From NCBI GenBank assembly GCA_024279945.1, contig JAJRRA010000077.1, positions 1 through 64,000 on the forward strand: a stretch of 64,000 bases of DNA, written 5' to 3'. This document shows positions 6,197-55,761 of this stretch, piece after piece (the stretch's first letter is position 1; every line of letters begins with the position of its first letter). The notes beneath the pieces were generated by a model. The model worked only from the letters and a program-made list of their open reading frames with translations, had not been told where the DNA came from and ran no database searches. The DNA is from Gammaproteobacteria bacterium. GTDB taxonomy: Bacteria; Pseudomonadota; Gammaproteobacteria; Xanthomonadales; SZUA-36. The translations under genes and the position numbers were made by a program.

Positions 6197-6446
6197 ATTT
6201 AGGGGAAATGGTGGCGGCATGGCGTACCGGTAAGGCAGGGCTGATCGTCAAATTCGCCTGGGTTGGCAGCAAAAAAGCTCTCGAACAGCCTGTCTTGATT
6301 CTTGTAGCAAAGTGAAGCCAAAAGTTGATACTGCTATACTTATAGCGGCTCAATTGTGTTTAGATAAATAATCTGTCCATATGCTACGGGGATAGTACTA
6401 CTGATAATAATCACCCTGTAGCCAGGCATTCACTACGCTATATAAA

Positions 6447-32226: not shown

Positions 32227-33368
32227 TGTCACAAATGCCACAACGCCAGAGCCTGCAAGGTAACCAGGCCTGTGCACTCGGTGCGATTGCTGCCGGCTGC
32301 CGTTTGTTTGCCGGATACCCGATTACTCCTTCATCCGAAGTTGCCGAGCGTATGTCGAAAGAGTTGCCACGCGTCGAAGGTGTTTTCGTTCAGATGGAAG
32401 ATGAGATTGCGTCGATGGCGGCAGTACTGGGCTCCTCGATGGGTGGAGTGAAATCGATGACTGCAACCAGCGGTCCGGGCTTTTCGCTTAAGCAGGAACA
32501 TATAGGCTATGCGGCGCTGGCTGAAGTACCGTGCGTGATCATTAACGTGATGCGCGGCGGGCCCAGTACCGGCATGCCGACACGCCCGGCTCAGGGAGAT
32601 GTCATGCAGGCACGCTGGGGAACGCACGGTGATCACCCGATCATTGTTGTCACGCCATCGTCTGTGCAGGAAATTTACCAGCTAACCATCAGGGCTTTCA
32701 ATTTATCGGAAACCTACCGTGTGCCGGTGATCGTACTGTACGACGAGGCCATCGGACATTTGGTCGATACCGTCGAGTTGCCGGATCCGGATTCCATCGA
32801 AATCCAGGACCGGAAGTGGGCCAGCGGCCCGGCCGAAGGCTACCTGCCTTATGCAGCAGATGAAGACGGCGTTCCACCCATGCCGCGACCGGGTGATGGC
32901 TACCGCACCCATACTACCGGTCTGACACACCTTGAGACCGGTTTTCCAACACAGGTTCCCGCCGATGTAAGCCGCGTAATTGGTCGATTGCTGGATAAAA
33001 TTGAACGGAATCGTGATGCGATTGAGCAGTATGAACTGACGAATTGTGATGATGCGGAAATCCTGGTGGTAGCTTTTGGTATCACCGCGCGTTCCAGTGA
33101 ACGGGCCGTCAACCTGGCCCGGGAAAGTGGCATCAAGGTTGGTCTGATGCGACCGCTAACCCTGTGGCCTTTCCCCGAGCGAAAAATGAAGGAACTGGCA
33201 GGGCAGGTGCGTCACGTGCTGGTGCCGGAAATGAATGCGGGGCAACTGATACTGGAGATTGAGCGATTGTGCCCGGACTCGGTCACCGTGAGTGGGATCA
33301 ATCGCTTTGACGGTTTGCCCATTGATCCGGGAGAGGTCCTGGACAAAATCAAGGAAATCAGCAAATGA
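32226..33368 (+). CDS. korA: 2-oxoacid:ferredoxin oxidoreductase alpha subunit (KorA/VorA type)
   Basis: 380 residues. Begins with LQGNQACALGAIAAGCRLFA and GYPITPSSEVAE, the canonical alpha-subunit start, followed by QMEDEIASMAAVLGSSMGG, TSGPGFSLKQEHIGYA and RGGPSTGMPTRPAQGDV. The middle and end carry the transketolase C-like domain. 2-oxoglutarate is the most common substrate for this subunit set (reversible conversion to succinyl-CoA), but branched-chain oxoacids are possible. It overlaps both neighbours. Confidence 0.88.
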   Translation: MSQMPQRQSLQGNQACALGAIAAGCRLFAGYPITPSSEVAERMSKELPRVEGVFVQMEDEIASMAAVLGSSMGGVKSMTATSGPGFSLKQEHIGYAALAEVPCVIINVMRGGPSTGMPTRPAQGDVMQARWGTHGDHPIIVVTPSSVQEIYQLTIRAFNLSETYRVPVIVLYDEAIGHLVDTVELPDPDSIEIQDRKWASGPAEGYLPYAADEDGVPPMPRPGDGYRTHTTGLTHLETGFPTQVPADVSRVIGRLLDKIERNRDAIEQYELTNCDDAEILVVAFGITARSSERAVNLARESGIKVGLMRPLTLWPFPERKMKELAGQVRHVLVPEMNAGQLILEIERLCPDSVTVSGINRFDGLPIDPGEVLDKIKEISK

Positions 33369-34252
33369 GTAAACTTGCCCTGAACCTGAAATCCCTGCAA
33401 AAAGCCGGGGAAAAATCAGACCATAAATTTGAAATCCGTGATTATCTGCGACTGGATTTGTTTCCTCATTTCCTTTGTCCGGGCTGTGGTCATGGTATCG
33501 CTTTGCGGGCTTTGCTGTGGGCTATTCACGACCTCGATATTGAGCTGGACCAACTGGCAGTGGTCAGTGGTATTGGCTGTTCGGGCCGTTTGAGTGCATA
33601 TATTGATGCCAACACCTTCCATACGACCCACGGGCGGCCCATTGCATTTGCCACGGGTCTGAAGCTGGCGCGGCCGGATCTTCACGTTGTCGTCATTACC
33701 GGTGATGGTGACTGTCTGGCGATTGGGGGTAATCACCTCATCCATGCAGCCCGCCGTAACCTGGACATCACCTGCATCATGCTGAATAACGAGGTTTACG
33801 GTATGACCGGCGGCCAGGTTTCTCCCACAACCAGCCTTGACCGGTATACCACCACAACGCCGTTGGGTAATCAGGAGCCGGGCTTTGATGCCTGCGCGCT
33901 CGCCAAAGGCGCCGGGGCGACTTTCGTCGGGCGTGAGGTGACATTGCAGACAACAGCACTCAAAAACCTGATGCAGGAAGGCCTCAGCCATGATGGATTT
34001 TCCTTTATCGAAGTAATCTCCGATTGCACGGAAATCTACGGGCGCAAGAATGAACTGGGTTCTTCACCGGAAATGGTTTTGAGCCAGAAGCGCAGTATTC
34101 TGCCCAAGTTTGACGGCACTGCGGTCGACAAACCCTTCCGGGCAGGTAACTGGGATACCGGTGTGCTGGTGCGCGAAGATCGGCCCGAGTACTACAAGGC
34201 CTATCGTAAACATTGCCACAAGGTGCTGGGCACCGCTGCCGTTAAAAAGTGA
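33365..34252 (+). CDS. korB: 2-oxoacid:ferredoxin oxidoreductase beta subunit
   Basis: 295 residues, the ThDP-binding subunit. CPGCGHG near residue 38 supplies cluster or substrate-site cysteines. VSGIGCSGRL, VVITGDGDCLAIGGNH (ThDP/Mg site) and MLNNEVYGMTGGQVSPTT are canonical. A stretch of about 25 residues precedes the usual start of the fold. It overlaps korA by 4 bases and is followed by korC after 13 bases. Confidence 0.9.
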   Translation: MSKLALNLKSLQKAGEKSDHKFEIRDYLRLDLFPHFLCPGCGHGIALRALLWAIHDLDIELDQLAVVSGIGCSGRLSAYIDANTFHTTHGRPIAFATGLKLARPDLHVVVITGDGDCLAIGGNHLIHAARRNLDITCIMLNNEVYGMTGGQVSPTTSLDRYTTTTPLGNQEPGFDACALAKGAGATFVGREVTLQTTALKNLMQEGLSHDGFSFIEVISDCTEIYGRKNELGSSPEMVLSQKRSILPKFDGTAVDKPFRAGNWDTGVLVREDRPEYYKAYRKHCHKVLGTAAVKK

Positions 34253-34265
34253 TGGGTAAGAAACC

Positions 34266-34820
34266 ATGAATAAAAAAGCGACAAAGAAATTCCGTGGGTT
34301 TGAGATTCGACTCAGCGGCACCGGCGGCCAGGGTCTGGGCCTGAGTGGAAAAATGCTGGCCGCAGCCTTGACCAGCGATGGTTTACATGTCGCACAGTCA
34401 CAAAGCTACGAGCCTACTTCACGTGGCGGCATGAGTCGCTCCGACCTGGTGGTCACGGAAGGAATTGCCGATTATCCACTGGCAACCGCGCTGGATTATC
34501 TGCTGATCCTGGATCAGCGCGCCATGTCCATATCAGATGGAATGATTAAAAAAGACGCCATTGTGCTGGTTGATGAGGAACTGGTTCCTGATCCGCCGAC
34601 CGGGGATTTCAAAGTTCACGCACTGCCCCTGAGCAAGACGGCCATTTCACTCGGCAACCTGCGCGTCACCAATGTGGTGAGCCTGGGTGCGCTGATTGCC
34701 CTGGCGAACATTTGCAGTCTGGCGACGCTGGAAGCGGCGATTGAGCGGATCACCCCCAAAAAATATGCACGAATGAACCTCGATGCCGTGCGTGCAGGCT
34801 ACGAATTGGTCAGCTCATAG
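34266..34820 (+). CDS. korC: 2-oxoacid:ferredoxin oxidoreductase gamma subunit
   Basis: 184 residues, the gamma/KorC fold: RLSGTGGQGLGLSGKMLAAA, QSYEPTSRGGMSRSDLVV, then NVVSLGALIALANI. It completes korABC. The KorD-like ferredoxin part is supplied by the iorB fusion upstream. The gene is followed by a REPIN that separates it from the AhpD-like gene. Confidence 0.88.
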   Translation: MNKKATKKFRGFEIRLSGTGGQGLGLSGKMLAAALTSDGLHVAQSQSYEPTSRGGMSRSDLVVTEGIADYPLATALDYLLILDQRAMSISDGMIKKDAIVLVDEELVPDPPTGDFKVHALPLSKTAISLGNLRVTNVVSLGALIALANICSLATLEAAIERITPKKYARMNLDAVRAGYELVSS

Positions 34821-38243: not shown

Positions 38244-39839
38244 CTATTCAACAGTTATGCCTGCGGTCTCCAGATACTCTTTCAGCGGCTGTAGCGGGGC
38301 GGTGAAATTTTTCCAATTATTGACTGATCTTGTGTGGGCTTTCTCGCGCACCTGTACCGAGCTCGCGGTCGCGCTGGGTGTCTTGTTGAGGTGGAAATCA
38401 AGGCAGGCCGGTTCGAAATCCAGCCCCAGCCTGTCCAGCAGAGTTCGTGTCTGTCCTTCCGGGTCGGCTACCAGAGATTCGTATTCAACTTCAATCACAC
38501 GCCCCTGAAGCGTTTCTCCCCAGTGGCGTCGCAGGCGGTCGTATGCAACGTAGTACCTGCCCAGGCTCTCCAGCGTATAGGCGAATTTGAAAAAAGACTG
38601 CTTATACATGAGAAAGCAGGCATCCATCGGATTGCGTCGCAGATGAACGATACGGGCATGTGGAAACGCTTTGGCTATGAAGCCGAGATAGAGGAAATTC
38701 AGGGGGTATTTGTCGATGAACATCGGGCGCTTGCCAAGCCGGTATTCCACGGCGTTCAAGTAGCCTTTGGCAATGAGCCTGATATCTTTTTTTGCTGCAG
38801 CCTCGATGATCGCGGGGCTTATGCTGTCGCTGCTTTGAATTCCACTGCTGCGCCTGATGATGTGTTCCATGAAAAATGTCTCATCGGCGCTTTCCACCTG
38901 TGAGTGGCTGGCGATAATCCGTTCGGTTAGCGTTGTGCCCGTGCGGGGCAGTCCAACGATAAATATCGGGATCTTTTGTGGCTTGTCCGTTCGGGTTTTC
39001 TTCACGGCCGTTGCCAGCCAGTCGGAGTTACATGCTTCGATGATTGTATCGATCAGGTCGGTTTCGACACGGACATCGTAGTCGGCTTTGCGGGTCACCA
39101 GGGTTACCGCATCGCCAGCCATTTTGTAGTACTGAAAGGCCTCTTGCCATTGTTCCAGGTCCTCAAGCTCTTTTCCTATCGCGTAATACATAAAGATATT
39201 TTTTTCCGGCGGCAGCCGGGTGGCCTTTAGAACTTCCTGCATCTGCTCCACATGTGAAGAATCTTTGGCCGTTTCCAGGCGGGACAACTCATAGTGATTT
39301 TTCTGGTGATGGGGATGCCGCTCCAGCAGTCTGAGATAGATGGCTTTCGCTTCCTTGATTTTGCCCAGGTACACCGCGCAGGCTGCAAGCCTGGCCTGGA
39401 ACTGGTCGAGCCCCGGTTGAAGCTCATTGGCTTGCTGATACAGGGGCCAGGCGCTGGCATGCAGGCCGAGCAGGGTATAAGTGCTGGCGGCCATGTCGAG
39501 GTAGAGTGGGCTGTTGAGCAGACGGGACTCATATCGTTTGAGCAAATCCAGTGCCTCGCGGTGACGCATAGCCAGTGCATACTGATGGGCTAACTCTATG
39601 GCTGCATCGTAACGTCCCGCATTGAGACTGATGGCTTTAGAGAACGCAGCCATGGCCTTGTTTGCCCTCCTGCCGGCTTTTTCTGCCAGCCCGGACAGGA
39701 AATAACCCTCCGGGTTCTTTTTATCCTGCTTTGTTATTCTGCGCGCACAAGTGCGAACCGTCGCCCAGTTTCCGGCCTGAACCGCCCGTCGGGCAGTTGC
39801 GCTGAGTTGTGAAAGATCGGCATTCACATGAAGCACCAC
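38244..39839 (-). CDS. TPR-sulfotransferase, copy 1
   Basis: 531 residues. Residues about 1-240 are tetratricopeptide-like repeats. From about 285 on there is a PAPS sulfotransferase domain: the 5'-phosphosulfate loop IFIVGLPRTGTTLTERIIAS (Gly/Arg/Thr around 296-303) and the 3'-phosphate segment RIVHLRRNPMDACFLMYKQ. The first codon is GTG; comparison with the neighbouring paralogue suggests that a later GTG at 39827 may be the true start (NADLSQLS aligns with TNNLSQIS). The closely similar gene 40 bases upstream makes this a tandem duplication. TPR parts usually recognise a peptide or protein acceptor, but the acceptor here is unknown. Confidence 0.87.
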   Translation of the reverse strand: MVLHVNADLSQLSATARRAVQAGNWATVRTCARRITKQDKKNPEGYFLSGLAEKAGRRANKAMAAFSKAISLNAGRYDAAIELAHQYALAMRHREALDLLKRYESRLLNSPLYLDMAASTYTLLGLHASAWPLYQQANELQPGLDQFQARLAACAVYLGKIKEAKAIYLRLLERHPHHQKNHYELSRLETAKDSSHVEQMQEVLKATRLPPEKNIFMYYAIGKELEDLEQWQEAFQYYKMAGDAVTLVTRKADYDVRVETDLIDTIIEACNSDWLATAVKKTRTDKPQKIPIFIVGLPRTGTTLTERIIASHSQVESADETFFMEHIIRRSSGIQSSDSISPAIIEAAAKKDIRLIAKGYLNAVEYRLGKRPMFIDKYPLNFLYLGFIAKAFPHARIVHLRRNPMDACFLMYKQSFFKFAYTLESLGRYYVAYDRLRRHWGETLQGRVIEVEYESLVADPEGQTRTLLDRLGLDFEPACLDFHLNKTPSATASSVQVREKAHTRSVNNWKNFTAPLQPLKEYLETAGITVE

Positions 39840-39878
39840 GCATTGTTCCGCAGTAACAAGCGACTGCTTGCCTGCGAA

Positions 39879-41462
39879 TCAGTCAATCTTGATACCCGCA
39901 TTTTCGAGGTGCTCCTTCAGCGGCTGTAACTGTGTCGCAAACCGGGTCCATTTGTTGACCGATTGCTGGTGGACTTTTTCCCGCACCTGTACCGAACTGG
40001 CCGTGGCGCTGGGTGCTTCGTTCTTATCGAAATCCAGGCAGGCCTGTTCGAATTCCAGGCCCAGTTTATCCAGCAGGGCGCGTGTCTGGTCTTCCGGGTC
40101 GGCTACCAGGGATTCGTATTCGACTTCTATCATCCGATCCTGCAGCAGTTCCCGCCAGTGATTTCGCAGACGGTCGTAGGCTACATAGTAACGGCCCAGC
40201 CCTTCCAGTGAATATGAAAATTTGTATGCCCAGGTAAACACCTGTTTGTACATGGAAAAACAAGAATCCATCGGGTTCCTTCCGAGGTGAACAATACGGG
40301 CATCGGGATAAGCCCGGGCAATAAATCCCAGAAACAGAAAATTGAACGGCAGTTTGTCTATGAACATGGGTTCGTCACCGAGCCGGTAGGATACCGAGTC
40401 GAGGTATCCGGAGGCGATCAGGCCCATATCTTTTGCGGCAACAGCCGCGATCATTTCCGGGTTCATGTTTTCGACACTTTGGATTCCGCTTTCCCGCCGC
40501 AGCACCATCTGCAAAAACTGGGTTTCACCCAGGCTTTCCACCTGTGAGTGACTGGAGATGATTCGCTCCGTGAGTGTCGTGCCCGTGCGCGGCAGGCCAA
40601 CGATAAACAGGGGCGTTTTACCGGCGGAATCCGGCCTGGGCTTGCCGGATTCGCTGGCCAGCCAGTCAGCGTCACAAACCTCAATGATCTTGTCAATCAG
40701 CGCAATGTCAGCGGCAACATCGTACTTGGCTACGCGGGTCACCGCATCGCCGGCCTTTTTATAGTACTCAAACGATTGTTCCCACTGCTCCAGGTCTTCC
40801 AGTTCTTTACCCACCGCGTAATACATGAAGATATTCCTGTCCGGCGGGTCATCGCTGTTTGCAAGAATTTCTTTCATCTCATCAATGTGCACAGTATCCG
40901 TTGCTTTGCTCAGACGAGACAGTTGGTAATGATTTCTCCGGTGGTTTGGAAATCGCTTCAACAGGGCCCTGTATATATCCCGGGCTTCTTCGATCTTTCC
41001 AAGGAAAACACCACAGGCTGCAAGGTTGGCCTGGAACAGGTCAACACCGGGTTGCAGGGCGTTGGCCTGTTTGTACAATGGCCATGCTTTTTGCGGCAAG
41101 CCGATTTCCGTGTAAACAGTGCCGGCCAAATCCAGGTACATCGGGCTGTTACCCAGTTTTTCCTGGTATCTTTCCAGCAATTCAGCGGCCTCACCGTTGC
41201 GCCGTGAAACCGAATATTGATTGGCCAGTTCGATGGCGGCGTCATAACGGCTTTCATCCAGTGCCAGGGATTTCTCAAACGCCGCAGCCGCCTTCAATGG
41301 CCTTTGTGAAACCCTTTCAACCAGCCCGGTCAGAAAATATCCCTCGGCACTGCCACTGTCCTGCCGGAGAATTTCATTGGCGCAGGCAGCAACTGTTGCC
41401 CAGTCCTGGGATTGCACTGCCTTCCTGCCGCTAAGGCTGATTTGGGATAGATTATTTGTCAT
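39879..41462 (-). CDS. TPR-sulfotransferase, copy 2
   Basis: 527 residues, a paralogue of the gene at 38244 along its whole length. TPR-like repeats at the N-terminus, then a sulfotransferase domain with LFIVGLPRTGTTLTERIISS and RIVHLGRNPMDSCFSMYKQ. Both end with the same pattern (ASSVQVREK-H-SVNKW ... LQPLKEHLENAGI). Divergence between the copies lies mainly in the TPR part and around the third-quarter active-site region, which would suit different acceptors. It is divergent from the methyltransferase gene at 41570. Confidence 0.87.
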   Translation of the reverse strand: MTNNLSQISLSGRKAVQSQDWATVAACANEILRQDSGSAEGYFLTGLVERVSQRPLKAAAAFEKSLALDESRYDAAIELANQYSVSRRNGEAAELLERYQEKLGNSPMYLDLAGTVYTEIGLPQKAWPLYKQANALQPGVDLFQANLAACGVFLGKIEEARDIYRALLKRFPNHRRNHYQLSRLSKATDTVHIDEMKEILANSDDPPDRNIFMYYAVGKELEDLEQWEQSFEYYKKAGDAVTRVAKYDVAADIALIDKIIEVCDADWLASESGKPRPDSAGKTPLFIVGLPRTGTTLTERIISSHSQVESLGETQFLQMVLRRESGIQSVENMNPEMIAAVAAKDMGLIASGYLDSVSYRLGDEPMFIDKLPFNFLFLGFIARAYPDARIVHLGRNPMDSCFSMYKQVFTWAYKFSYSLEGLGRYYVAYDRLRNHWRELLQDRMIEVEYESLVADPEDQTRALLDKLGLEFEQACLDFDKNEAPSATASSVQVREKVHQQSVNKWTRFATQLQPLKEHLENAGIKID

Positions 41463-41511
41463 TTTATGTGACCGTATAGGGCAGAGGCTGTCCGCTGCGA
41501 AATTTGGCTTA

Positions 41512-41538
41512 TTGTTAACGAATTGTGCTTGTTATACT
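41512..41538 (+). promoter_or_regulatory. possible promoter of the methyltransferase gene
   Basis: TTGTTA (41512-41517) and TATACT (41533-41538) resemble -35 and -10 boxes but are 15 bases apart, shorter than the usual 17. They lie 32 bases before the start codon in a short divergent gap. Assigned on sequence alone. Confidence 0.3.
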
Positions 41539-41569
41539 AGTACGTTGCGCTATATGAACAAGCTTACAA

Positions 41570-42541
41570 ATGAATAAACACCAATCTGATTCTTCACAGA
41601 TAGCCGATAGTTGGGATACCTACTGGCATGGCACGGGCGATGTTGGGGCATACTCAAGTGGAGGGGCAAATCATCCACTGATTTTGGCGTTCTGGGATGA
41701 ATTTTTCCATGCGGTGAATCAGGATTACATTGCCCCGAATATCATAGATGTTGCCAGCGGAAACGGCGCAGTCGTTGAACGCGCTCTGGCGGTGTTTGGT
41801 GACAGGCAAGCAGATTTTATTTGTCTTGATGTATCTGCTGCTGCTATCGCTAATATCCGTGACCGTTTCCCTGCTGTTGAGGGCATCGTTAGCGATGCTC
41901 GCTCCGTACCACTGGATTCCGGCAGCGTTGATGTTGCCACCAGTCAGTTTGGGGTTGAATATGCCGGACGGGATGCCATTGACGAAATCGCTCGGCTGCC
42001 TGGACCCGGCGGCCGCCTCGCACTTCTTCTGCACAGCCAGGAAGGCAGTATTCACCAGGAGTGCATGGAAAGCCTGGACGCTGTTGTGCGCTTGCAGGAA
42101 TCCCGGTTTATTCCGTATGCCATCGATATGTTCAGTGCAGGTTTCGATGCGGTCCGGGGTGCAGACCGTGCGCCGTATGAGGCGGCTGCCAAACAGCTTG
42201 CTCCGGCAGTCGGAGCGCTTGAGGCCATCATGAAACAGTATGGCCAACACGTCGCCGGCGATACCATTGTCCGGCTCTACAGTGATGTGGGCCGGATTCA
42301 TCAGAAAATTCAACACTACGAACCCGGTGAGGTGCTGGACTGGCTGAAAAGAATGGACAGCGAACTGGATGCGTATGCAGGGCGCATGTTATCCATGAGT
42401 GAATGTGCTATCGACGATGAATCGTTTGAGCAAATTGTGACGGGGCTTCGCCAACAGGATTACACAATTGGCCGTGCAGATCTACTGACGGTTCCGGATC
42501 AGGACCTCCCGCTGGCCTGGGCCCTGATCGCAACAAAATGA
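41570..42541 (+). CDS. class I SAM-dependent methyltransferase
   Basis: 323 residues. Motif I is IIDVASGNGAVVERAL, motif II has FICLDVSAAAI, and the post-motif SGSVDVATSQFGVEY is typical of SAM methyltransferases. The C-terminal 130 residues are helical and may be an acceptor-binding part. It is divergent from the TPR-sulfotransferases and followed after 36 bases by a DUF4826-like gene. The acceptor cannot be told from sequence. Confidence 0.82.
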   Translation: MNKHQSDSSQIADSWDTYWHGTGDVGAYSSGGANHPLILAFWDEFFHAVNQDYIAPNIIDVASGNGAVVERALAVFGDRQADFICLDVSAAAIANIRDRFPAVEGIVSDARSVPLDSGSVDVATSQFGVEYAGRDAIDEIARLPGPGGRLALLLHSQEGSIHQECMESLDAVVRLQESRFIPYAIDMFSAGFDAVRGADRAPYEAAAKQLAPAVGALEAIMKQYGQHVAGDTIVRLYSDVGRIHQKIQHYEPGEVLDWLKRMDSELDAYAGRMLSMSECAIDDESFEQIVTGLRQQDYTIGRADLLTVPDQDLPLAWALIATK

Positions 42542-42577
42542 ACGGGTGCGATCAAAGCCTGATACAAGGGTAAAGAT

Positions 42578-43024
42578 ATGGAAGATAAGTCGGATACGCC
42601 TGCGCGGGAACAACTGAAGGCCTGGACGAAAAAGCAACTGGATGCCACGGTACATAAGCTGATGGAGCAGGGCGTTGTTGATAGCCTGATCGTTGAGGCA
42701 AAACCGGCCTGGGTGCTGCCATTCCAGATACTGATCGGCAAGATTCGTGCACATGGACGAGTGAAAGATTTTGCATGGTTTATCTGCGGAGAAGTTCCGA
42801 CCGACTTTCTGGAATCCACAGTCGCAGCCACACCCAGAGAGGCGGCAAGACATTTTTCCATGAAATGGCAGTTGCAGGCGTCTCAGTATCGGGCCTCCGA
42901 TGGTCTGGAGACTCATGGTACAAGGCAGGATGACAGCAAGGAAGAGCCTGGCGGGCAACTCGCAGATCAGGCAGAGGCGCTTTATTCACTGGTCGATGAG
43001 CCAGGATTATGGCTGGCCGAATAG
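42578..43024 (+). CDS. DUF4826-like protein
   Basis: 148 residues, cytoplasmic, no membrane segments. The segment WFICGEVPTDFLESTVAATP followed by REAARHFSMKWQLQA is characteristic of DUF4826 proteins, whose function is unknown. EAKPAWVLPFQILIGKIRAH is the other conserved block. It sits between the methyltransferase and the P-loop gene, on the same strand, with short gaps, so co-transcription is likely. Confidence 0.6.
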   Translation: MEDKSDTPAREQLKAWTKKQLDATVHKLMEQGVVDSLIVEAKPAWVLPFQILIGKIRAHGRVKDFAWFICGEVPTDFLESTVAATPREAARHFSMKWQLQASQYRASDGLETHGTRQDDSKEEPGGQLADQAEALYSLVDEPGLWLAE

Positions 43025-43076
43025 AAAGCATGAAAGAATAATAGAACGGTCAAGGAGAGGTTTTAATCAGAAAATC

Positions 43077-44156
43077 ATGCTTATAAAAACAACAGATTTC
43101 AGAATTGCCGCTCCGGCATTGCTGTTTGAACCAGAATACTATGTATTCGATTTAGCGCCGGATGGTGGAATCACCAAATTCCTGGTGGTTGAGGAAGAGA
43201 AGTTAAAACTCGCGCCGTTTATTGATATTCGCTTTGAACCTCTTGCACAGGGCCAGTTTGCAGTATCGTCCAAAGAGCTGTTTTCCCTGGAGGGTATGCA
43301 CAATATCAGACGACCTCCATCCGTGTTCATCTTTCATCATGCATTTGTCTGTTCCACCCTGCTTGCACGCTGCATGAATCAGGTTGATGCTTTCTTCAGC
43401 CTGAAGGAGCCCTGGATATTGAGGCGTCTGTCTGACTTAAAACGGGCCCGGGGGCATGCTCTCCGGGGTACTCAGTGGCAGGAAATGTTCACCTGCTATC
43501 TGAATCTGCTTGCCAAGAACTACAAGACAGGGGCTGCTTCCCTGATCAAGGTGACCAATGTTGCAAATAATCTGCTATCTGATGTATTGCGATACTTTCC
43601 AGACCGGAAAATTCTTTACCTGTATTCCGATCTGGAAAGTTTTCTTGTTTCGAACCTGAAGAAACCACCCGCTACGCAAAAAAAAATGCCCGGACTGGCC
43701 ATGGGTTTTCTGTCCGATGGAGATTTTGCCCGGAGATTTCCACGATTCAGTGATGTAAAGCGCCTTACTTTCCTGCAGGCCTGTGCACTGATCTGGCTGG
43801 TTAATCTGTATAACTTCAGACAAAGCACCAAAGGTCTGAGCCGGTCAAATGTGAGAACGCTCGAAATGAATGATTTTCTATCTGACATGGGCGGAAGTCT
43901 GACCGGACTCAGTCATTTTTTTGGACACAAGGCCAGCCCGGCAGAGATCCAAAGTATGCTCGACCCCGGCATCATCAAGCGAGACGCCAAACATCAGGAA
44001 TTACCCTATGGCAGGCAGACAAAACAGGCAGAAACCGAGCGAATTATGAGTCATTACGGTATCGAAATAAGGAGAACAATCAGCTGGATCAATCCCCTGG
44101 TTGAACAACTGGCGGTGCTGGCCTTCTGCGAGGACAATCGGGTGAGAAATGATTAA
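43077..44156 (+). CDS. P-loop / sulfotransferase-like protein
   Basis: 359 residues. VFIFHHAFVCSTLLARCMNQ is followed by FFSLKEPWILRRLSD, the pattern of a nucleotide- or PAPS-binding loop seen in divergent sulfotransferase-fold proteins. KILYLYSDLESFLVSNLKK later matches the 3'-phosphate segment. It is not a close relative of the two TPR-sulfotransferases and lacks TPRs. ATG 43077 is used; AAGGAGAGG lies about 16 bases upstream. The stop overlaps the start of the 2OG oxygenase by 8 bases, so the two are strictly coupled and probably work on the same substrate. Confidence 0.6.
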   Translation: MLIKTTDFRIAAPALLFEPEYYVFDLAPDGGITKFLVVEEEKLKLAPFIDIRFEPLAQGQFAVSSKELFSLEGMHNIRRPPSVFIFHHAFVCSTLLARCMNQVDAFFSLKEPWILRRLSDLKRARGHALRGTQWQEMFTCYLNLLAKNYKTGAASLIKVTNVANNLLSDVLRYFPDRKILYLYSDLESFLVSNLKKPPATQKKMPGLAMGFLSDGDFARRFPRFSDVKRLTFLQACALIWLVNLYNFRQSTKGLSRSNVRTLEMNDFLSDMGGSLTGLSHFFGHKASPAEIQSMLDPGIIKRDAKHQELPYGRQTKQAETERIMSHYGIEIRRTISWINPLVEQLAVLAFCEDNRVRND

Positions 44157-44868
44157 CCCGGATCATGATAGCGCCCGGTTGGCAAAATTATTTGAGGTCG
44201 ACAAGCGGCTTGTTATCGAGAACTTTCTGCAAGGTGATGTGGCGGACCGTATCCACAATGCCTGTCTTGATAGCGTTCCATTCAGTATCCAGTATGTACT
44301 GGACGGAAAGTATCAGAGCAAGAGCCAGCAGGACATGACAAAAATGGATGCTCAGGAGAAACAGGTTATCAACAGGAAAATACTGACTGATGCGAGCCAG
44401 GGTATTGGATTTCTATACGGCGCATATCTCAACAGCAGGGTGAGTGAAGATCCGGATAAGACCCACAGTGAAGGGTTGAGATTTCTGCATGATGTTTTCC
44501 GCTACATCGGCAGTGAGGATGTGCTTGGCCTGATCCGTGAAATTACCGGAAAAAGTGACATCACAGGCGCTGAGCCGCAATACACTCGTTTTACTCCCGG
44601 GCATTTTCTGACCCGCCACCGGGATGTTGTAAAGGGCAGAGGGCGACGCCTGGCCTTTGTGTTGGGTTTGACCAAAGGCTGGCATCCGGACTGGGGAGGT
44701 TTGCTGCAGTTTTACGAAGAAAATGGAATGCCCCGCGATGCATGGATGCCCCGGTTTAATGTCCTCTCCATCTTTGATGTCAGTCACATCCATGCAGTAA
44801 CCTATGTGGCACCCTTTGCACGTACGCCAAGACTGTCCCTGACGGGATGGTTTGTGGCAAAAGCTTGA
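44149..44868 (+). CDS. 2-oxoglutarate/Fe(II)-dependent oxygenase, prolyl-4-hydroxylase-like
   Basis: 239 residues. The iron ligands are His157 and Asp159 (TRHRDV) with distal His215 (HIHAVTYVAP); Arg228 (in RTPRLSLTGWF) would bind the 2-oxoglutarate carboxylate. The jelly-roll core and GGLLQFYEENG match the prolyl hydroxylase/TPA1-type family. It would hydroxylate a side chain of an amino acid, peptide or protein. The overlap with the P-loop gene suggests combined hydroxylation and group transfer. A hairpin terminator follows. Confidence 0.85.
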   Translation: MINPDHDSARLAKLFEVDKRLVIENFLQGDVADRIHNACLDSVPFSIQYVLDGKYQSKSQQDMTKMDAQEKQVINRKILTDASQGIGFLYGAYLNSRVSEDPDKTHSEGLRFLHDVFRYIGSEDVLGLIREITGKSDITGAEPQYTRFTPGHFLTRHRDVVKGRGRRLAFVLGLTKGWHPDWGGLLQFYEENGMPRDAWMPRFNVLSIFDVSHIHAVTYVAPFARTPRLSLTGWFVAKA

Positions 44869-44876
44869 AGCAGCAT

Positions 44877-44911
44877 AAAAAAAGGGCCGCTTTTCAGCGG
44901 CCCTTTGTTGT
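44877..44911 (-). terminator. intrinsic terminator between the 2OG oxygenase and the TonB receptor
   Basis: A perfect 11-base-pair stem (AAAGGGCCGCT, loop TTTC, AGCGGCCCTTT) at 44881-44906. Read on the minus strand it is followed by seven T residues, a strong terminator for the TonB receptor gene. On the plus strand it is followed by a T-rich GTTGTCT, so it may also stop the oxygenase transcript. Confidence 0.9.
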
Positions 44912-44934
44912 CTAGCTAACGCTTATCTGGCTGA

Positions 44935-47820
44935 TCAGTACTTCCATGAAAGGCGCAAGTAATAACCACGACCGAACAGGCGGTAAGTTGAAGGATCTGT
45001 CTTACCGTTAAAGCCCTGATCGATGAACGGTGGTGCCTCGTCGGTGATGTTGGTTATACCACCGGTAACCATGGTGCCGCCAAAGGTATAACTGGCAACA
45101 AGGTCATGATACAACTTGGAAGGAATTTTCTGGGTGTAACCCGGAACAAACCAGGCTTTCCCGTCCAGGCCACTGATGTATTCACCCAGGTAACCCAGTG
45201 AGAAATCATTCCACAACCATTGCAAGGAGTAGTTGACCTTATCCTTCGCGTATGCGTTGCCTCTGTCACCGTCATACCGGCCTTCCAATTTTTCAACAGG
45301 ATTGGCGGGGAACTGACGAATCCTGCGCTCCAGAAGGTGGGACCACAAGACTGCACCCTGCCACTGGCCGACACTGGAATCGTAATCCCAACGGACTTCC
45401 GTATCAACACCCTTGGCGCTTTGGTCAGATACATTTAGCTGTGCGTCAATGATTTGCTTAACAGAATAATCTGTGTCACGTGTAATCAGGGCGCATGCAT
45501 CTTGATTCTGCTCAATGTAGCACTGGTCCAGACTGAACTGGACACCCAGCGAACTGATGCCATCGTTCAGATTGACTTCCCAGTAATCCGCAAGAATCGA
45601 CATATTGTGGTTGCCAAATTCAGGCGTCCAAACAAAGCCGGCGGTAAAGGTATCACCGGTTTCAGGCTGCAGGAATGGATTGCCTCCAACCCGTGCCAGT
45701 ACCTGACTGTCGGTCTGAACACCAACCTGTGCGCAGCCTGGCGGTAAGGATTCGCCGGCAGCCGGAACACAGGGATCGCTGTAGGTCGGGAAGCTGTCAA
45801 CCTGACCACCGAACAGATCACCAATCGTTGGGGCACGGAATACCGTTCCATAGGTAGCCCTCAGTTTCAGAGATTCGATTGCCTGGAATTCAATACCGAG
45901 TTGATAGGTGGTATCACCGCTGAATGCATTCCAGTCATCATAACGCACACCACCTTTCAGGTAGATATTCTGTGTACCGTTGTCCCAAACCGGTAGCAGA
46001 ACTTCGCCGAAGAAACTGTTGTTGGTCAGTGAACCGCTGGTGCCGGCGCCGACGTTACCGGTTACGGCACCGATGGTCTTGGCCGAGTCAGGTGTGTAGG
46101 TGAACTCCTGCTTCCAGTACGCCCAGCCAACGGCCCAACCGATTTCGCCACCCGGCAACTGGAAATTGGAACCGGTGAGGCTTGCGCCGGCCAGTCGCTG
46201 TCGTGAAATATAGGTATCAACCGTATCCAGAGAGACATAGTCAACCATATCCTGAGTCAGGGTGGTTGTTGTCGGGTTACCGCCTGCATCAACCACACCG
46301 CCACCAAACATGTTCAGCGGTACACAGCCTACGATCAGTGTGCCTGGGTCATTGATGTCGGTATAGCATTCAGGCTGTCCATTTCCGTCCAGATCGGCGG
46401 ATGGGCCTAATGCATTTTGTAGACGAACACCGGAGAATTGACCGAAGTCTCTGTCAGTACGGCTTCGATGGCCTTCGTTAATGTAAAAGTCCCAGTTCAT
46501 ATCGTTGAAATCGCCTTCCAGACCGGCTACCCATTGATACTGTGTGACGACCTGCTCAAAGCGACGATTGGTTTCAATCATGCGACGGCGAGGATTAACC
46601 ACGGGTTCATAAATCAGGGAAGTACCGTTGGCCGCATTGTAGGCATCAACTGCCCGGCGCAGGTAATAGTTATCCTGTGAGATACCGGTGAAAGCGACCG
46701 TTTCGCCAGTCGCCGGGTCTTGATAGAAACCGTTGTACATCGGGTCGCCACCAGTGAACGGCAACGGCGCAAGTTGCTGCGCTGATTCGCGGTAATTGCC
46801 GCGGAACTCAGCGTAGAAGCGGACATTATCAGTCAGATCGAAGTGAGCTTCACCGAATATATTGGTCCGCTGATACGGTGTTTGCAGGTAATTGACCGGT
46901 GCGTAGTTATAAGTGCGCCCGTCATGCGGTTGCATCAAACCGACCTCGTATGGCTGAGATGCCGGTGTGCCGACCAGGAACAGACCCTGGCTGTAAAACG
47001 ACAGGCGGCTTTCCGGAATACGTGAAGAACCGATCGGGTAACAACCACCCTGGGGAGTTCCGTCGTAAGGCGCTGTCACCTGATTTTCGCAACCGCCGGG
47101 ATAGATGTACCAGGAGTTCTGTAAGAAATCCCAGGGAACATCGCGTTGGAAAGCTTCTTCCTGTTTCACGTACTCGGCACCGAATACGAAATTGCCGGAT
47201 TCGAATTCTTTACCGGCGATCAGTCCGAATGTGTCCTGCTGGCCTTTGGAATCAAACCAGTCAGCCGTCTGGGCTGTCAGTTCGATACCACTGAAGTCAC
47301 GGCGTGTGATGATGTTCACAACACCTGCGACTGCGTCGGCACCGTAAATGGCTGAAGCACCGTCTTTCAGAATTTCAACACGTTCAATCATGGTTGACGG
47401 AATGGCCTGGTAGTCACCACCATCAACGACGCGTTTGCCGTTGACCAGTGTCAGGGTACGCGCTGAGCCCATACCGCGAAGGTCAATCAGTACTGCACCG
47501 TTACCACCGTTATTCGTTGTGGTGCCGATCGGAGAACCGGACATGGAAGGCATGCTCTGGAGCAAGTCACCGATATCGGTGATGCCTGCGGCCAGGATGT
47601 CTTCCCGCTTGAGAATAGTCACCGGGCTTGCGCTGTCAATATCAGCACGTCGGATGCGTGATCCGGTAACAACCACTTCTTCAATTGCTGCTGCTTCATC
47701 AGCATCCTGTGCGTCTGTTTCCTGTGCAAAAACATTGGGCACGGCTGATACAGCAAGCACGCCTGCGCTTAAACCCAGCGCAAGATGAATTGCCGATTGT
47801 AGTTTGGTATTTGTTGACAT
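44935..47820 (-). CDS. TonB-dependent receptor, large
   Basis: 961 residues. A signal peptide ends at VFAQE. EEVVVTGSRIRRADIDSASP is a TonB-box/plug start. The plug shows RTLTLVNGKRVVDGGDYQAI and VEILKDGASAIYGADAVAGV, typical of the large receptors of carbohydrate/peptide-like uptake in Alteromonas-Xanthomonas-type bacteria. The C-terminus is LRLSWKY. The gene is transcribed alone toward a strong terminator. It faces the sulfotransferase/oxygenase cluster, so it may take up the compound those enzymes treat. The roughly 270-base gap before it shows no gene. Confidence 0.93.
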   Translation of the reverse strand: MSTNTKLQSAIHLALGLSAGVLAVSAVPNVFAQETDAQDADEAAAIEEVVVTGSRIRRADIDSASPVTILKREDILAAGITDIGDLLQSMPSMSGSPIGTTTNNGGNGAVLIDLRGMGSARTLTLVNGKRVVDGGDYQAIPSTMIERVEILKDGASAIYGADAVAGVVNIITRRDFSGIELTAQTADWFDSKGQQDTFGLIAGKEFESGNFVFGAEYVKQEEAFQRDVPWDFLQNSWYIYPGGCENQVTAPYDGTPQGGCYPIGSSRIPESRLSFYSQGLFLVGTPASQPYEVGLMQPHDGRTYNYAPVNYLQTPYQRTNIFGEAHFDLTDNVRFYAEFRGNYRESAQQLAPLPFTGGDPMYNGFYQDPATGETVAFTGISQDNYYLRRAVDAYNAANGTSLIYEPVVNPRRRMIETNRRFEQVVTQYQWVAGLEGDFNDMNWDFYINEGHRSRTDRDFGQFSGVRLQNALGPSADLDGNGQPECYTDINDPGTLIVGCVPLNMFGGGVVDAGGNPTTTTLTQDMVDYVSLDTVDTYISRQRLAGASLTGSNFQLPGGEIGWAVGWAYWKQEFTYTPDSAKTIGAVTGNVGAGTSGSLTNNSFFGEVLLPVWDNGTQNIYLKGGVRYDDWNAFSGDTTYQLGIEFQAIESLKLRATYGTVFRAPTIGDLFGGQVDSFPTYSDPCVPAAGESLPPGCAQVGVQTDSQVLARVGGNPFLQPETGDTFTAGFVWTPEFGNHNMSILADYWEVNLNDGISSLGVQFSLDQCYIEQNQDACALITRDTDYSVKQIIDAQLNVSDQSAKGVDTEVRWDYDSSVGQWQGAVLWSHLLERRIRQFPANPVEKLEGRYDGDRGNAYAKDKVNYSLQWLWNDFSLGYLGEYISGLDGKAWFVPGYTQKIPSKLYHDLVASYTFGGTMVTGGITNITDEAPPFIDQGFNGKTDPSTYRLFGRGYYLRLSWKY

Positions 47821-51999: not shown

Positions 52000-53265
52000 A
52001 TGGAAATCATTGCTCAATACGGAACTGTTTTCATGGTTCTGGCCATTATTTTTGGCCTCTACATGACCTGGGGCATCGGCGCTAATGATGTTGCCAATGC
52101 GATGGGTACGTCGGTAGGTTCCCGCGCTATTACAGTCAAACAGGCCATTCTGATCGCCGCTGTTTTTGAATTTGCCGGTGCTTTCATCGCTGGCGGAAAC
52201 GTCACGTCCACTATCCGCAAGGGGATTGTTGACCCCAGCGGTATTGCCGGTCAGCCGGAAATACTGGTTTTCGGTATGCTTGCTGCGTTGCTGGCAGCAG
52301 GTATATGGCTGATGATCGCATCTTCCCGTGGCTGGCCTGTTTCCACCACACATTCGATTGTAGGAGCGCTGATCGGCTTCGCCATTGCGGGCATTGGTCC
52401 GGATGCGGTGCACTGGGACAAGATCGGGTTCATTCTCGCCAGTTGGGTCATTTCACCGGCGCTGGGCGGTTTTCTCGCCTACATGCTGATGATGAGTATC
52501 CGGAAGTTTATCCTGAATACGGATTCACCCTTTGAAAGCGCTCAAAAATGGGGACCCTTTTACGTGTTCCTGCTCGGTTTCATTATTTCTCTGGTCACCC
52601 TGTTCAAGGGTCTGAAGCATCTCAATGTGGAATTGTCCGTGCCCGTGAGTTTCCTGGTCGCGCTGTGTTTTGGGCTGCTCATAGCCTTCATCGGCTGGTT
52701 GCTGATCCGTAAAATAGAGATAGACCCGGAAGCGGATCGCGACTATCACTTTGCCAGTGTCGAGAAAATATTCGTGCCCATGATGATTTTCTCCGCTTGC
52801 TCCATGGCCTTCGCCCATGGCTCCAATGATGTTGCCAACGGTATTGGTCCCCTGGCCGCAGTTGTCAGTGTGGTTAAGTCCGGTGGTGAAATAGCGCAGC
52901 AGTCCGCGCTGCCATTGTGGATTCTGATCCTGGGTGGAACCGGGATTGTTATTGGTCTTGCGACCATGGGATACCGGGTAATGGGGACCATCGGCACGCG
53001 CATCACACAGCTCACTCCAACCCGTGGGTTTTCTGCTGAGTTGGCCGCTGCTGCGACCGTTGTCCTTGCTTCAAGAACAGGGCTGCCGGTCTCCACCACC
53101 CATATTCTCGTAGGTGCAGTGATTGGGGTAGGCCTGGCCCGGGGCGTAGGCGCCATCGATTTGCGCGTCATTGGCGGTATTATCGTTTCCTGGGTGGTAA
53201 CTTTGCCCGCCGGTGGAATTCTTGCCGCCCTGATCTTCTTCATGCTCAAAGGAATGTTCGGCTAG
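52000..53265 (+). CDS. pit: Pit-family inorganic phosphate transporter
   Basis: 421 residues, about ten membrane helices with the duplicated signature GANDVANAMG (from residue 27) and GSNDVANGIGPLAAVV (about residue 270). WPVSTTHSIVGALIGFAIAG and LPVSTTHILVGAVIGVGLA are the paired STTH loops. It moves phosphate with protons, or metal-phosphate complexes. It is paired with the PhoU-like gene upstream. Confidence 0.93.
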   Translation: MEIIAQYGTVFMVLAIIFGLYMTWGIGANDVANAMGTSVGSRAITVKQAILIAAVFEFAGAFIAGGNVTSTIRKGIVDPSGIAGQPEILVFGMLAALLAAGIWLMIASSRGWPVSTTHSIVGALIGFAIAGIGPDAVHWDKIGFILASWVISPALGGFLAYMLMMSIRKFILNTDSPFESAQKWGPFYVFLLGFIISLVTLFKGLKHLNVELSVPVSFLVALCFGLLIAFIGWLLIRKIEIDPEADRDYHFASVEKIFVPMMIFSACSMAFAHGSNDVANGIGPLAAVVSVVKSGGEIAQQSALPLWILILGGTGIVIGLATMGYRVMGTIGTRITQLTPTRGFSAELAAAATVVLASRTGLPVSTTHILVGAVIGVGLARGVGAIDLRVIGGIIVSWVVTLPAGGILAALIFFMLKGMFG

Positions 53266-53391
53266 GAACGTGCTCCGTCTGTATTAGGAGTTTCCAAAGC
53301 TATGGTCATTCAGCATGAAACTGATAGACTACGCGGTTTTACGGACCACTTACCAGCCCGTTCGAGTTGGGGTTCCACTTGGGAGGATTTC

Positions 53392-55761
53392 ATGCGGCCA
53401 TCTCTGCTTTTTTCATTCACCTTCGTTTTACTGGCCTTTGCGACCTTTGGAATTGAAGCATCGGAACCCGCCGGTTCGGCATTGTCTGAACGCGAGACAG
53501 AAATGCAGGCAGAAATTGCCCGGCTCGAAACTCAGCTAGGCAACGCCAGGCAAACTATTTCAGGCCTGGAAACTGAACTGGAAACTGCTAAAACCGAGTT
53601 TGCGCGACTGCAGCAGGCGCCTGCTGTAACGGCAGCGAGTACAGCTTCTGCCGCCACCGTGGCTGAGAATGAAAATGGTGAGACAGCGCCGCTACAATCG
53701 CGGCCCCGTTTACCGGCCTCAATTACCAGCCTGACTGCCGAGAAACTGAACCTTGGGGGTGTCGAAGATGTATCACGCCTGGAGTTTCTTGCACCGGGGT
53801 TGCGTTACGGGCAAACCGGCAACAACGTCCGCTTGTCCATGCGGGGCTCCAGGACCAACAGCATTGGCCCTCAGGCTGATTCGGTTGTCGGGTATTACGA
53901 GGACGGAGTCTCAATTCCGACTTCGACAGCGCGGTTTGGTTCTTTGGTAGATGTTGAGCGAATTGACGTGTTGCGTGGACCACAGATAACGAATTTCGGT
54001 CAGCATGCCTATGCCGGCGCCATCAGTATTATCACCAATAAACCCAACTTTGATGGGTTTCACGGCTATGCCGAGGCTGAAAATGGCCTTCCGGATAAAA
54101 CACGCTGGAGAATGGCGCTCAATATTCCCATCAGTGATACCTTCGCTTTTCGGGCAGCCGGTGTTTCTGAGAGCCGTTCCGGCTGGATCAATAATTATGT
54201 TATCGAACCGGATTCAGATGACCTGAACGACCGGAAAGTACAATCGGTTCGCCTGAGCCTGCTATGGCAACCCAGTGATAATTTCAATATTCTTCTGTGG
54301 AGTCGCTACCAGGACGAAAACGGCACGGGCTCAGGCCCCTGGGGCTATCAACAGGTCGGTGCTTACGTTGATGGCGAACTTCAACCCGGTCACCAGTTTG
54401 CAGCGGACGGTTTTACACCGGATAGCGGCCCCTGGGATGTCTATCGGAATTTTATTTCTGCCGCCCAGTATGAACACTGGGTCAATACCATGGATATGAA
54501 CTGGGATATGGGTTTTGCCAGCCTTCAGTGGCTCAGCAACCTCTCGGCTTTTCATGGTTCTCAAACCTATGACAACGATTACAGCAACAAGGGTGAGTTC
54601 ACCAGCAGCGCATTCGCCGGCTGGGACATCAATGAGCTTAACTTATCCAGCGAGCTTCGTTTGTCATCCAATGGAACGGGGCCATTGAGTTGGCTGGCTG
54701 GATTCTACTGGTCCGATCGAACAACGGATTGGGGCTGGCTTCAGGCAGACAATGGCCTGATCACCCAACCGGATTGGGATGTGAAGGGAGACTATCTGGT
54801 CGATACTCTGGCCGTTTTCGGTCAGGTCAGTTATGAATTTGCTGATCGATTCACCGTCACTGGCGGTTTACGCTGGAATGAGGACAGCAAGACGCTGAAG
54901 ACGGGCGAAAAGGGTAGTTGGGACGATATCCTGTGGAAAGCGGCACTGCAATACGACATTAACGATAATGTGATGACCTACCTGTCAGCATCGACCGGTT
55001 ATCTTGCTGGCGGTATTAATTCCGCACCCGGCGTCAATCCACGCTGGAAACCGGAAAAACTGGCGGCTTATGAATTTGGCCTGAAAAGTGTACTGGCGGA
55101 TGGTGATTTGCAGTTAAACCTGGCTGTGTGGATTAACGATTTCAAAGATGCCCAGTCGCAGTCTTTCCTGGTGTTGCCTTTTCCGGGGTCACCCGAAGCC
55201 ACTGAATATACCGGAAATGGCGGGGCTATAGATGCCAAAGGCGTTGATCTGGAAATTCAGTGGTCGCCCACGCCGAAGTGGCAAATTGCAACAAATATTG
55301 CCTACATGGATGCCAAATTTGGAAATTATGTCGCAGCAAATCTTAATGGTCTGGGCGACATACCGGGGCATACCAATGGCGATGCCCTTTCGTTCAAGGG
55401 CTGGCGCCCGGCCTTGTCGCCGGAATGGGTCGTGGGCTTGCAGACTTCTTATACGTTCAACCTGAAAAACTGGGGAGCCCTGGTGCCTTACCTCCAGACC
55501 ACTTACGCCAGCGACTATTATGTTTCCGATCTTAACCTGGCCGGAGTCCGGCAGGGCTCACATACCCGGACCGATCTCCGCATTATCTGGCAGGCGCCGG
55601 GAGATTTCGACATCCAGTGCTATTATCTCAATGCAGAGTATGCGGAAACCATGAATTGGGCCAGGGTATACAATCCGGCGGCCCGGCCCGAGATCACGAC
55701 GCTGCAGGCTAATTGGAACAACCCAAATACCTACGGGATCATGTTTCACTACCAGTTTTGA
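53392..55761 (+). CDS. TonB-dependent receptor with N-terminal coiled coil
   Basis: About 789 residues from ATG 53392, which has GGGAGG at 5 bases; an upstream ATG at 53302 would spoil the signal peptide. After a signal peptide (LLFSFTFVLLAFATFGIEAS) comes a charged coiled-coil of about 48 residues (residues 28-75), then a low-complexity Ala/Thr-rich linker. Only then does a plug follow (LEFLAPGLRYGQTGNNVRLS, VVGYYEDGVSIPTS, VERIDVLRGPQITNFGQHAY). There is no TonB box of the EEVVVT type. The chain ends GIMFHYQF, an outer-membrane-type aromatic end. The coiled-coil may assemble receptors or contact a partner protein. It follows the pit gene by about 125 bases; it converges on murA. Confidence 0.88.
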   Translation: MRPSLLFSFTFVLLAFATFGIEASEPAGSALSERETEMQAEIARLETQLGNARQTISGLETELETAKTEFARLQQAPAVTAASTASAATVAENENGETAPLQSRPRLPASITSLTAEKLNLGGVEDVSRLEFLAPGLRYGQTGNNVRLSMRGSRTNSIGPQADSVVGYYEDGVSIPTSTARFGSLVDVERIDVLRGPQITNFGQHAYAGAISIITNKPNFDGFHGYAEAENGLPDKTRWRMALNIPISDTFAFRAAGVSESRSGWINNYVIEPDSDDLNDRKVQSVRLSLLWQPSDNFNILLWSRYQDENGTGSGPWGYQQVGAYVDGELQPGHQFAADGFTPDSGPWDVYRNFISAAQYEHWVNTMDMNWDMGFASLQWLSNLSAFHGSQTYDNDYSNKGEFTSSAFAGWDINELNLSSELRLSSNGTGPLSWLAGFYWSDRTTDWGWLQADNGLITQPDWDVKGDYLVDTLAVFGQVSYEFADRFTVTGGLRWNEDSKTLKTGEKGSWDDILWKAALQYDINDNVMTYLSASTGYLAGGINSAPGVNPRWKPEKLAAYEFGLKSVLADGDLQLNLAVWINDFKDAQSQSFLVLPFPGSPEATEYTGNGGAIDAKGVDLEIQWSPTPKWQIATNIAYMDAKFGNYVAANLNGLGDIPGHTNGDALSFKGWRPALSPEWVVGLQTSYTFNLKNWGALVPYLQTTYASDYYVSDLNLAGVRQGSHTRTDLRIIWQAPGDFDIQCYYLNAEYAETMNWARVYNPAARPEITTLQANWNNPNTYGIMFHYQF

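Follow-up and report, generated by a model that had tools for sequence, protein, structure and literature searches.

A conserved putative protein-modification module of TPST-like sulfotransferases and a 2OG oxygenase beside a TonB-dependent receptor in Proteobacteria

The sulfation of tyrosines and the hydroxylation of side chains are known chiefly from the secretory proteins of eukaryotes. The closest described relatives of the enzymes discussed here are the eukaryotic sulfotransferases TPST1 and TPST2, in the second of which we take Arg78 to be the P-loop Arg and Glu99 to be the catalytic Glu, and the hydroxylases OGFOD1 and PPHD (4iw3), the latter presumably an EF-Tu prolyl hydroxylase. Bacterial precedents for parts of this chemistry are also available. 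The raxX-raxSTAB locus of Xanthomonas includes the sulfotransferase RaxST and the secreted, tyrosine-sulfated peptide RaxX, as described in PMC6637879, and methanobactin operons, according to PMC3621798, contain a sulfotransferase (MbnS) that adjoins a TonB transporter, together with MbnF. Here, we describe a gammaproteobacterial gene cluster that resembles each of these systems in some respects, and that combines two sulfotransferases fused to TPR domains, a third protein with a predicted sulfotransferase fold, a 2OG-Fe(II) oxygenase, and a TonB-dependent receptor (TBDR).

The cluster occupies positions 38244-47820 of the 64,000-nucleotide stretch that was analysed (hereafter the window), and checking of the open reading frames showed that it consists of seven intact ORFs. 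Two TPR-sulfotransferases that are 63% identical to each other are encoded on the minus strand, namely copy 1 (38244..39839, 531 aa; Pfam TPR and Sulfotransfer_3, E 1.9e-46) and copy 2, which has a TPST-like catalytic domain (39879..41462, 527 aa; TPR and Sulfotransfer_3, E 5.2e-48). These are followed on the plus strand by a SAM-dependent methyltransferase (41570..42541, 323 aa; Methyltransf_25, E 2.3e-10), a DUF4826 protein (42578..43024, 148 aa; Pfam E 1.3e-20), a protein without a Pfam family that we name STlike (43077..44156, 359 aa), and a 2OG-Fe(II) oxygenase resembling protein prolyl hydroxylases (44149..44868, 239 aa; 2OG-FeII_Oxy_4, PF13661, E 3.2e-22), whose gene overlaps that of STlike by 8 nt. 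The TBDR, the proposed substrate, is encoded on the minus strand (44935..47820, 961 aa; Plug E 1e-22, barrel E 3.8e-23). These are the genes that the initial annotation had listed, and Pfam agrees with it in every case but that of STlike, which has no match.

Copy 2 of the TPR-sulfotransferases was compared with solved structures using phmmer. Residues 285-506 matched human TPST2 and TPST1 at an E-value of about 1e-10, and the N-terminal repeats matched those of O-GlcNAc transferase. In the alignment with TPST2, Arg292 and Glu313 pair with Arg78 and Glu99, and both are invariant across 13 homologues, copy 1 included, so that both the P-loop Arg and the catalytic Glu are present. Judged by its sequence, TPR-sulfotransferase 2 looks like a protein-directed enzyme of the TPST type. 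For STlike, scanning the whole 418-aa ORF gave no match in Pfam or NCBIfam. We set its start at 43077 rather than at 42900, the start given in the ORF list, because the longer form would run into the DUF4826 gene and because the homologues start at the corresponding Met. An AlphaFold2 model built with 72 sequences (mean pLDDT 95.1, pTM 0.93) had human TPST2 as its top solved match in Foldseek (E 1.9e-5), and the top seven rows returned by VIA-align were all TPSTs (Z 15.6-16.6, rmsd 3.3-3.9, 226-242 aligned), with the next family appearing only at Z 14.0. The predicted structure therefore agrees with the initial annotation, which had called this Pfam-less gene a sulfotransferase-fold protein. 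Profile comparison also connects STlike to the TPR-sulfotransferases (E 2e-5, probability 77%), and in this alignment Glu111 of STlike stands opposite their catalytic Glu313, but Phe90 occupies the position of the P-loop Arg that corresponds to TPST2 Arg78. With a TPST fold but a Phe at this position, STlike is not a canonical TPST. The likeness to TPST1 and TPST2 is thus one of sequence for TPR-sulfotransferase 2, which has the Arg/Glu pair, and one of fold for STlike. In contrast to these eukaryotic proteins, the cluster enzymes are bacterial, no signal peptide was noted in them, sulfotransferases 1 and 2 are fused to TPRs, and STlike departs from the P-loop.

The 2OG enzyme has PPHD (E 1.7e-7) and OGFOD1 (E 1.1e-6) as its closest solved relatives by sequence, while EGLN1 matched only weakly (E 0.17 or higher). 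All 27 sequences in the alignment have H157, D159, H215, and R228, and the enzyme thereby retains the HxD...H iron triad and the 2OG-binding Arg that it shares with PPHD and OGFOD1. About 95 residues are alignable with these two proteins, from which it also differs in that its gene lies in a cluster of sulfotransferase and TBDR genes. Sequence comparison makes it look like a putative protein prolyl hydroxylase of the PPHD/PHD type. Several TPR-fused hydroxylases and methyltransferases are encoded at related loci, including proteins that join TPRs to an Asp_Arg_Hydrox domain and that we take to be ASPH-like aspartyl/asparaginyl beta-hydroxylases. These ASPH-like proteins are absent from the window cluster, which has the PF13661 enzyme instead. 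At L025 (positions 4286-6370), a single protein of 694 aa contains both Asp_Arg_Hydrox and Sulfotransfer_3 domains, a natural hydroxylase-sulfotransferase fusion that suggests, from its domain content, that hydroxylation and sulfation may be coupled in that lineage; it was counted once because L025 and L059, judged by their length and gene pattern, are the same contig stretch. TPR-fused methyltransferases also adjoin TPR-sulfotransferases at L191, L192, and L201, which can be compared with the methyltransferase of the window.

These protein-directed relatives bear on the question of whether the cluster acts on a small molecule. TBDRs often lie beside genes for their own ligand. Sulfotransferases and 2OG oxygenases act on small molecules as well as on proteins, and a PLP decarboxylase is encoded next door, all of which would fit enzymes that make or alter a siderophore-like compound taken up by the receptor. 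The TPR fusions, the TPST-type fold, and the protein-hydroxylase relatives point the other way, however, and no assembly-line enzymes were found among the 20 window genes scanned, making this explanation improbable in our estimation. The flanking genes encode pyruvate/2-oxoacid:ferredoxin oxidoreductase (POR) subunits, a CMD protein, a cyclophilin, the PLP decarboxylase, MeaB, an FAD monooxygenase, a phosphate transporter, a second TBDR, and EPSP synthase, and a siderophore pathway was dropped as a candidate on the basis of this content. Within these flanks, the POR genes form a tandem pair of subunit sets (29423-34820), and in the stretch 52000-55761 the PHO4 phosphate transporter gene stands immediately ahead of the second TBDR, a protein of 819 aa.

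The initial annotation had held conserved clustering to be what a modification locus should display, and the same gene set does recur at other loci. STlike itself is rare in a sample of the class (11 of 369 genomes, the window's own genome included). A scan of named genomes with the single STlike sequence gave no matches, and a scan with a profile found 155 relatives. Of these, 80 loci were analysed, which we grouped as 20 gammaproteobacterial (including L043 and L049, labelled only "Proteobacteria bacterium") and 60 alphaproteobacterial, mostly Sphingomonadaceae. STlike is a sulfotransferase-fold family that has no Pfam or NCBIfam model and is present in many sphingomonads. Twelve loci, counting the window, are of the window type, and the other 11 share its gene set up to the ends of their contigs. 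The methyltransferase gene is found in 12 of the 12, the 2OG gene in 11 (L052 is without it), and the DUF4826 gene in 11 (split into two pieces in L044, and absent from L048 at a contig end). A TPR-sulfotransferase occurs in 11, with two copies in five loci and one in six, its absence from L045 being due to a contig end, and the TBDR gene is found in nine, the gaps in L044, L047, and L048 again being contig ends. The gene order is altered in several of these loci, and all seven genes are present in a different order in L024. In our judgement, there is good support for a conserved module in which protein-directed enzymes are linked to a TonB receptor, and we found no description of such a module in the open-licence PMC literature.

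The module is not invariably complete. The STlike of one close relative, L049, is 51% identical to that of the window, but none of the other module genes was detected there in 8.4 kb upstream and 1.5 kb downstream, and its neighbours are instead cbb3-oxidase genes and a gene of proteasome-like type. In many alphaproteobacterial loci (e.g., L061-L068), STlike and a TBDR are the sole module genes detected. An aspartyl/asparaginyl hydroxylase lies within 5 kb of STlike in at least 28 of the 60 alphaproteobacterial loci, a lower bound since the hydroxylase counts omit the PF13759-type enzymes of L027, L054, and L058, and a TPR-sulfotransferase does so in eight of the 60. At L028, STlike, TPR-sulfotransferases, a TPR-methyltransferase, and a 2OG enzyme are found near dockerin/TSP3 proteins, with no TBDR detected.

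Among the 80 loci, 57 have a TBDR gene within 5 kb of STlike, and this rises to 52 of 63 when loci with less than 5 kb on either side are set aside. The linkage is present in both groups, with 10 of 20 gammaproteobacterial loci (8 of 11 with such flanks) and 47 of 60 alphaproteobacterial loci (44 of 52). In successive 2-kb shells around STlike, the density of TBDRs across the 80 loci is 1.68, 0.32, 0.26, 0.04, and 0.0 per 10 kb. The average in the window's own genome, which encodes 45 TBDR plug domains in 3.92 Mb, is about 0.11 per 10 kb, and clustering in the first shell is thus well above background. We regard this average as a sounder background than the outermost shells, whose values are lowered somewhat because the detector was a profile of the N-terminal 330 residues and receptors cut at the edges of loci can escape it. 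Neighbours were counted on all ORFs; in GC-rich genomes, long antisense ORFs (two of which had no Pfam match) hide receptors in non-overlapping sets. The first shell is also enriched in TPR-sulfotransferases, aspartyl/asparaginyl hydroxylases, and 2OG enzymes. A chance neighbourhood of common families could be imagined in a genome that, besides its TBDRs, has 17 Sulfotransfer_3 match rows, but with the same set recurring in altered order at 11 other loci and receptor density dropping to zero away from STlike, coincidence is extremely improbable and was dropped on the conservation data.

There are also STlike loci that do not follow this pattern, as no TBDR was found within 5 kb in 23 of the 80. 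Several of these are short contigs, but 10 of them and L057 have 5 kb or more on each side, and contig ends therefore explain only part of the missing receptors. Some (e.g., L070, L072, L082, L086, L091, L093, and L098) have no TBDR within 5 kb despite having 10 kb on each side.

The TPR-sulfotransferases have a looser relationship with receptors. Homologues at E <=1e-50 are present in 60 of 274 genomes, and we sampled the neighbours of 20 such loci, taking one per genome and excluding loci already met, for a total of 348 kb against 260 kb of control stretches. A TBDR was found near six of the 20 loci and in two of 17 controls, a difference that is not clear. In the window's own genome, a TBDR directly adjoins three other TPR-sulfotransferase loci (L037, L038, and L039), and the TPR-sulfotransferases of the window lie 3.5 kb from one, but no TBDR was found near the locus at C55:86409. 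Because a receptor accompanies so few of the sampled loci, we view the TPR-sulfotransferases as a broader family, with a strong receptor link for STlike and for some of its members. The initial annotation is supported in part: the locus is conserved and linked to a TonB receptor, but TPR-sulfotransferases on their own are not generally found beside a TBDR, and STlike rather than the TPR-sulfotransferase is the tighter partner of the receptor.

We also surveyed the linkage from the side of the receptor. At E <=1e-60, 17 homologues besides the window's own were found in 274 genomes, and 15 of their neighbourhoods were examined, the other two being in loci already carrying the module (L027 and L034). 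Module enzymes lie beside five of the 15 (L141, L146, L147, L148, and L150), or beside four of 14 new neighbourhoods, as L147 and the STlike locus L025 are one and the same piece of contig. The nearest receptor (L141 in genome G167, 65-68% identical) has the methyltransferase and two TPR-sulfotransferases alongside, but neither STlike nor the 2OG gene. In 36 alphaproteobacterial loci, distances between STlike sequences correlate with those between TBDRs (r 0.74) and equally with those of clpB (r 0.75, with the clpB identity resting on one member), and with clpB held constant a partial correlation of 0.46 remains between STlike and TBDR (permutation p 0.001). The genes have thus been inherited jointly, but such correlations do not separate function from linkage. 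In L061-L121, which are from sphingomonads and others, the STlike-TBDR pair often adjoins clpB, and a homologue of the clpB of L071 is found in 38 loci.

If the substrate were a peptide, a precursor gene might be expected nearby. We compared seven small ORFs in the gaps of the cluster across 12 loci and found none that is conserved, making a cluster-encoded precursor peptide unlikely. ORF 41377-41577 was the only one with similarity below E 0.05, and its matches fall in residues 1-30, antisense to the start of TPR-sulfotransferase 2, and in a stretch by the methyltransferase start (L042 and L043). A RiPP precursor within the cluster was dropped as a candidate, the lone matching ORF being mostly antisense to TPR-sulfotransferase 2. 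The resemblance to RaxST/RaxX (PMC6637879) lies in a bacterial sulfotransferase for an exported polypeptide; the cluster differs from it in having neither a precursor peptide in its gaps nor exporter genes that we could find, and has a TBDR and a hydroxylase instead. Similarly, it shares with methanobactin operons a sulfotransferase next to a TonB transporter, but lacks MbnA, MbnB, and MbnC (ten genes were scanned with Pfam and NCBIfam, and the gaps hold no precursor). The methanobactin sulfotransferases belong to PF00685, whereas the cluster has TPST-like enzymes and a 2OG enzyme.

The enzymes might nonetheless act on exported proteins other than the receptor, or on a ribosomal peptide whose gene lies elsewhere, and the receptor would then import or sense the product, as with methanobactin, which a TonB transporter takes up. 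The pairing of sulfotransferase and TonB transporter in methanobactin operons lends this some plausibility (PMC3621798), as does Table 2 of PMC10040529, whose entries for Pontixanthobacter (clusters 1738-1748) place lasso-peptide B2, sulfotransferase, aspartyl beta-hydroxylase, and PqqD under neighbouring numbers and possibly represent a sulfated, hydroxylated lasso peptide. Related enzymes also adjoin the dockerin/TSP3 proteins of L028 and, at L188 (4061-12133), where there are two TPR-sulfotransferases, an autotransporter of 1344 aa that has an extended signal peptide, suggesting that autotransporters may be substrates too. Against this reading are the lack of a conserved precursor ORF in the gaps, the absence of maturation genes for a lasso peptide or methanobactin from the 20 window genes that were scanned, and the recurrence of STlike and TBDR alone across many sphingomonad loci. 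On balance, we consider this reading unlikely, although less so than that of a small molecule.

The reading that we prefer, and to which we assign a probability of roughly 0.48, is that the cluster encodes a module for tailoring proteins in the cytosol, most likely acting on the neighbouring receptor before its export. The receptor stands out because, of the seven genes, it alone belongs to an exported family, and its own sulfation and hydroxylation would be the reading that assumes least, with odds that are about even. The unfolded TBDR chain would be held by the TPR domains of both TPST-like sulfotransferases before Sec export. These two enzymes and STlike would then move sulfate from PAPS, which requires an APS kinase that the genome encodes, onto tyrosine or hydroxyl side chains, and the prolyl-hydroxylase-like 2OG enzyme would hydroxylate a side chain on the same protein, with the methyltransferase and the DUF4826 protein assisting the modification. 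The modified residues may sit in extracellular loops, where they could tune receptor binding. The data establish the gene content, the conserved linkage, the protein-acting families, the active-site residues kept in the 2OG enzyme and TPR-sulfotransferase 2, and the APS kinase gene, whereas the activities, their order, their sites, and the receptor's role as substrate are inferred. We count in favor of this reading the recurrence of the set at 11 other loci, the TBDR linkage, the TPST and PPHD relatives, the TPR fusions, the hydroxylase-sulfotransferase fusion of L025, the overlap of the STlike and 2OG genes, the absence of a precursor ORF, the APS kinase, and the three TPR-sulfotransferase loci adjoining TBDRs in the same genome. 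We count against it the solitary STlike of L049, the 23 loci without a TBDR, the unclear difference from controls, the incomplete set at L141, the missing P-loop Arg of STlike, the equal tracking of STlike by clpB, and the hints of other surface targets at L188 and L028.

A broader proposal, which we advance more tentatively and at somewhat less than even odds, is that this is a dedicated TBDR sulfation and hydroxylation system of gamma- and alphaproteobacteria. Its core would be the undescribed TPST-fold STlike family paired with one receptor, around which lineage-specific TPR-sulfotransferases, prolyl or aspartyl/asparaginyl hydroxylases, and methyltransferases would place sulfated and hydroxylated residues in extracellular loops. 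If so, the modified loops would tune the capture of ligands or the evasion of phages and bacteriocins, and receptors for nutrients, siderophores, and phages would bear chemistry that is invisible in the gene sequence, which would change how receptor ligands and phage recognition are predicted.

The receptor has the Plug and 22-stranded barrel of a TBDR, the strands being counted from the DSSP string of a model with pLDDT 83.6. Relative to nine full-length orthologues, mean identity to the window receptor is 0.69 in the extracellular loops, 0.63 in the strands, and 0.83 in the plug; the loops were assigned from the same string, the truncated L051 receptor was excluded, and the averages come from this receptor family alone. 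Individual loops range from 0.38 to 0.84, with the last loop at 0.84. This conservation fits a constrained surface, of which ligand binding may be the cause. Near the C-terminus, P943 has a frequency of 0.92 in STlike-linked receptors and 0.18 in unlinked ones, and S944 of 0.76 and 0.0, respectively (38 linked and 11 unlinked receptors, with 5 others set aside), but these residues were dropped as a modification site because the linked receptors group together in the phylogeny and the C-termini of other TBDRs look similar to the motif. A candidate region is the Cys-bounded loop at residues 236-275 (within window positions 46996-47115), which has an identity of 0.82 and a pLDDT of 53-71, and in which Tyr240-Pro241 and Pro251-Tyr252 are invariant across the nine orthologues.
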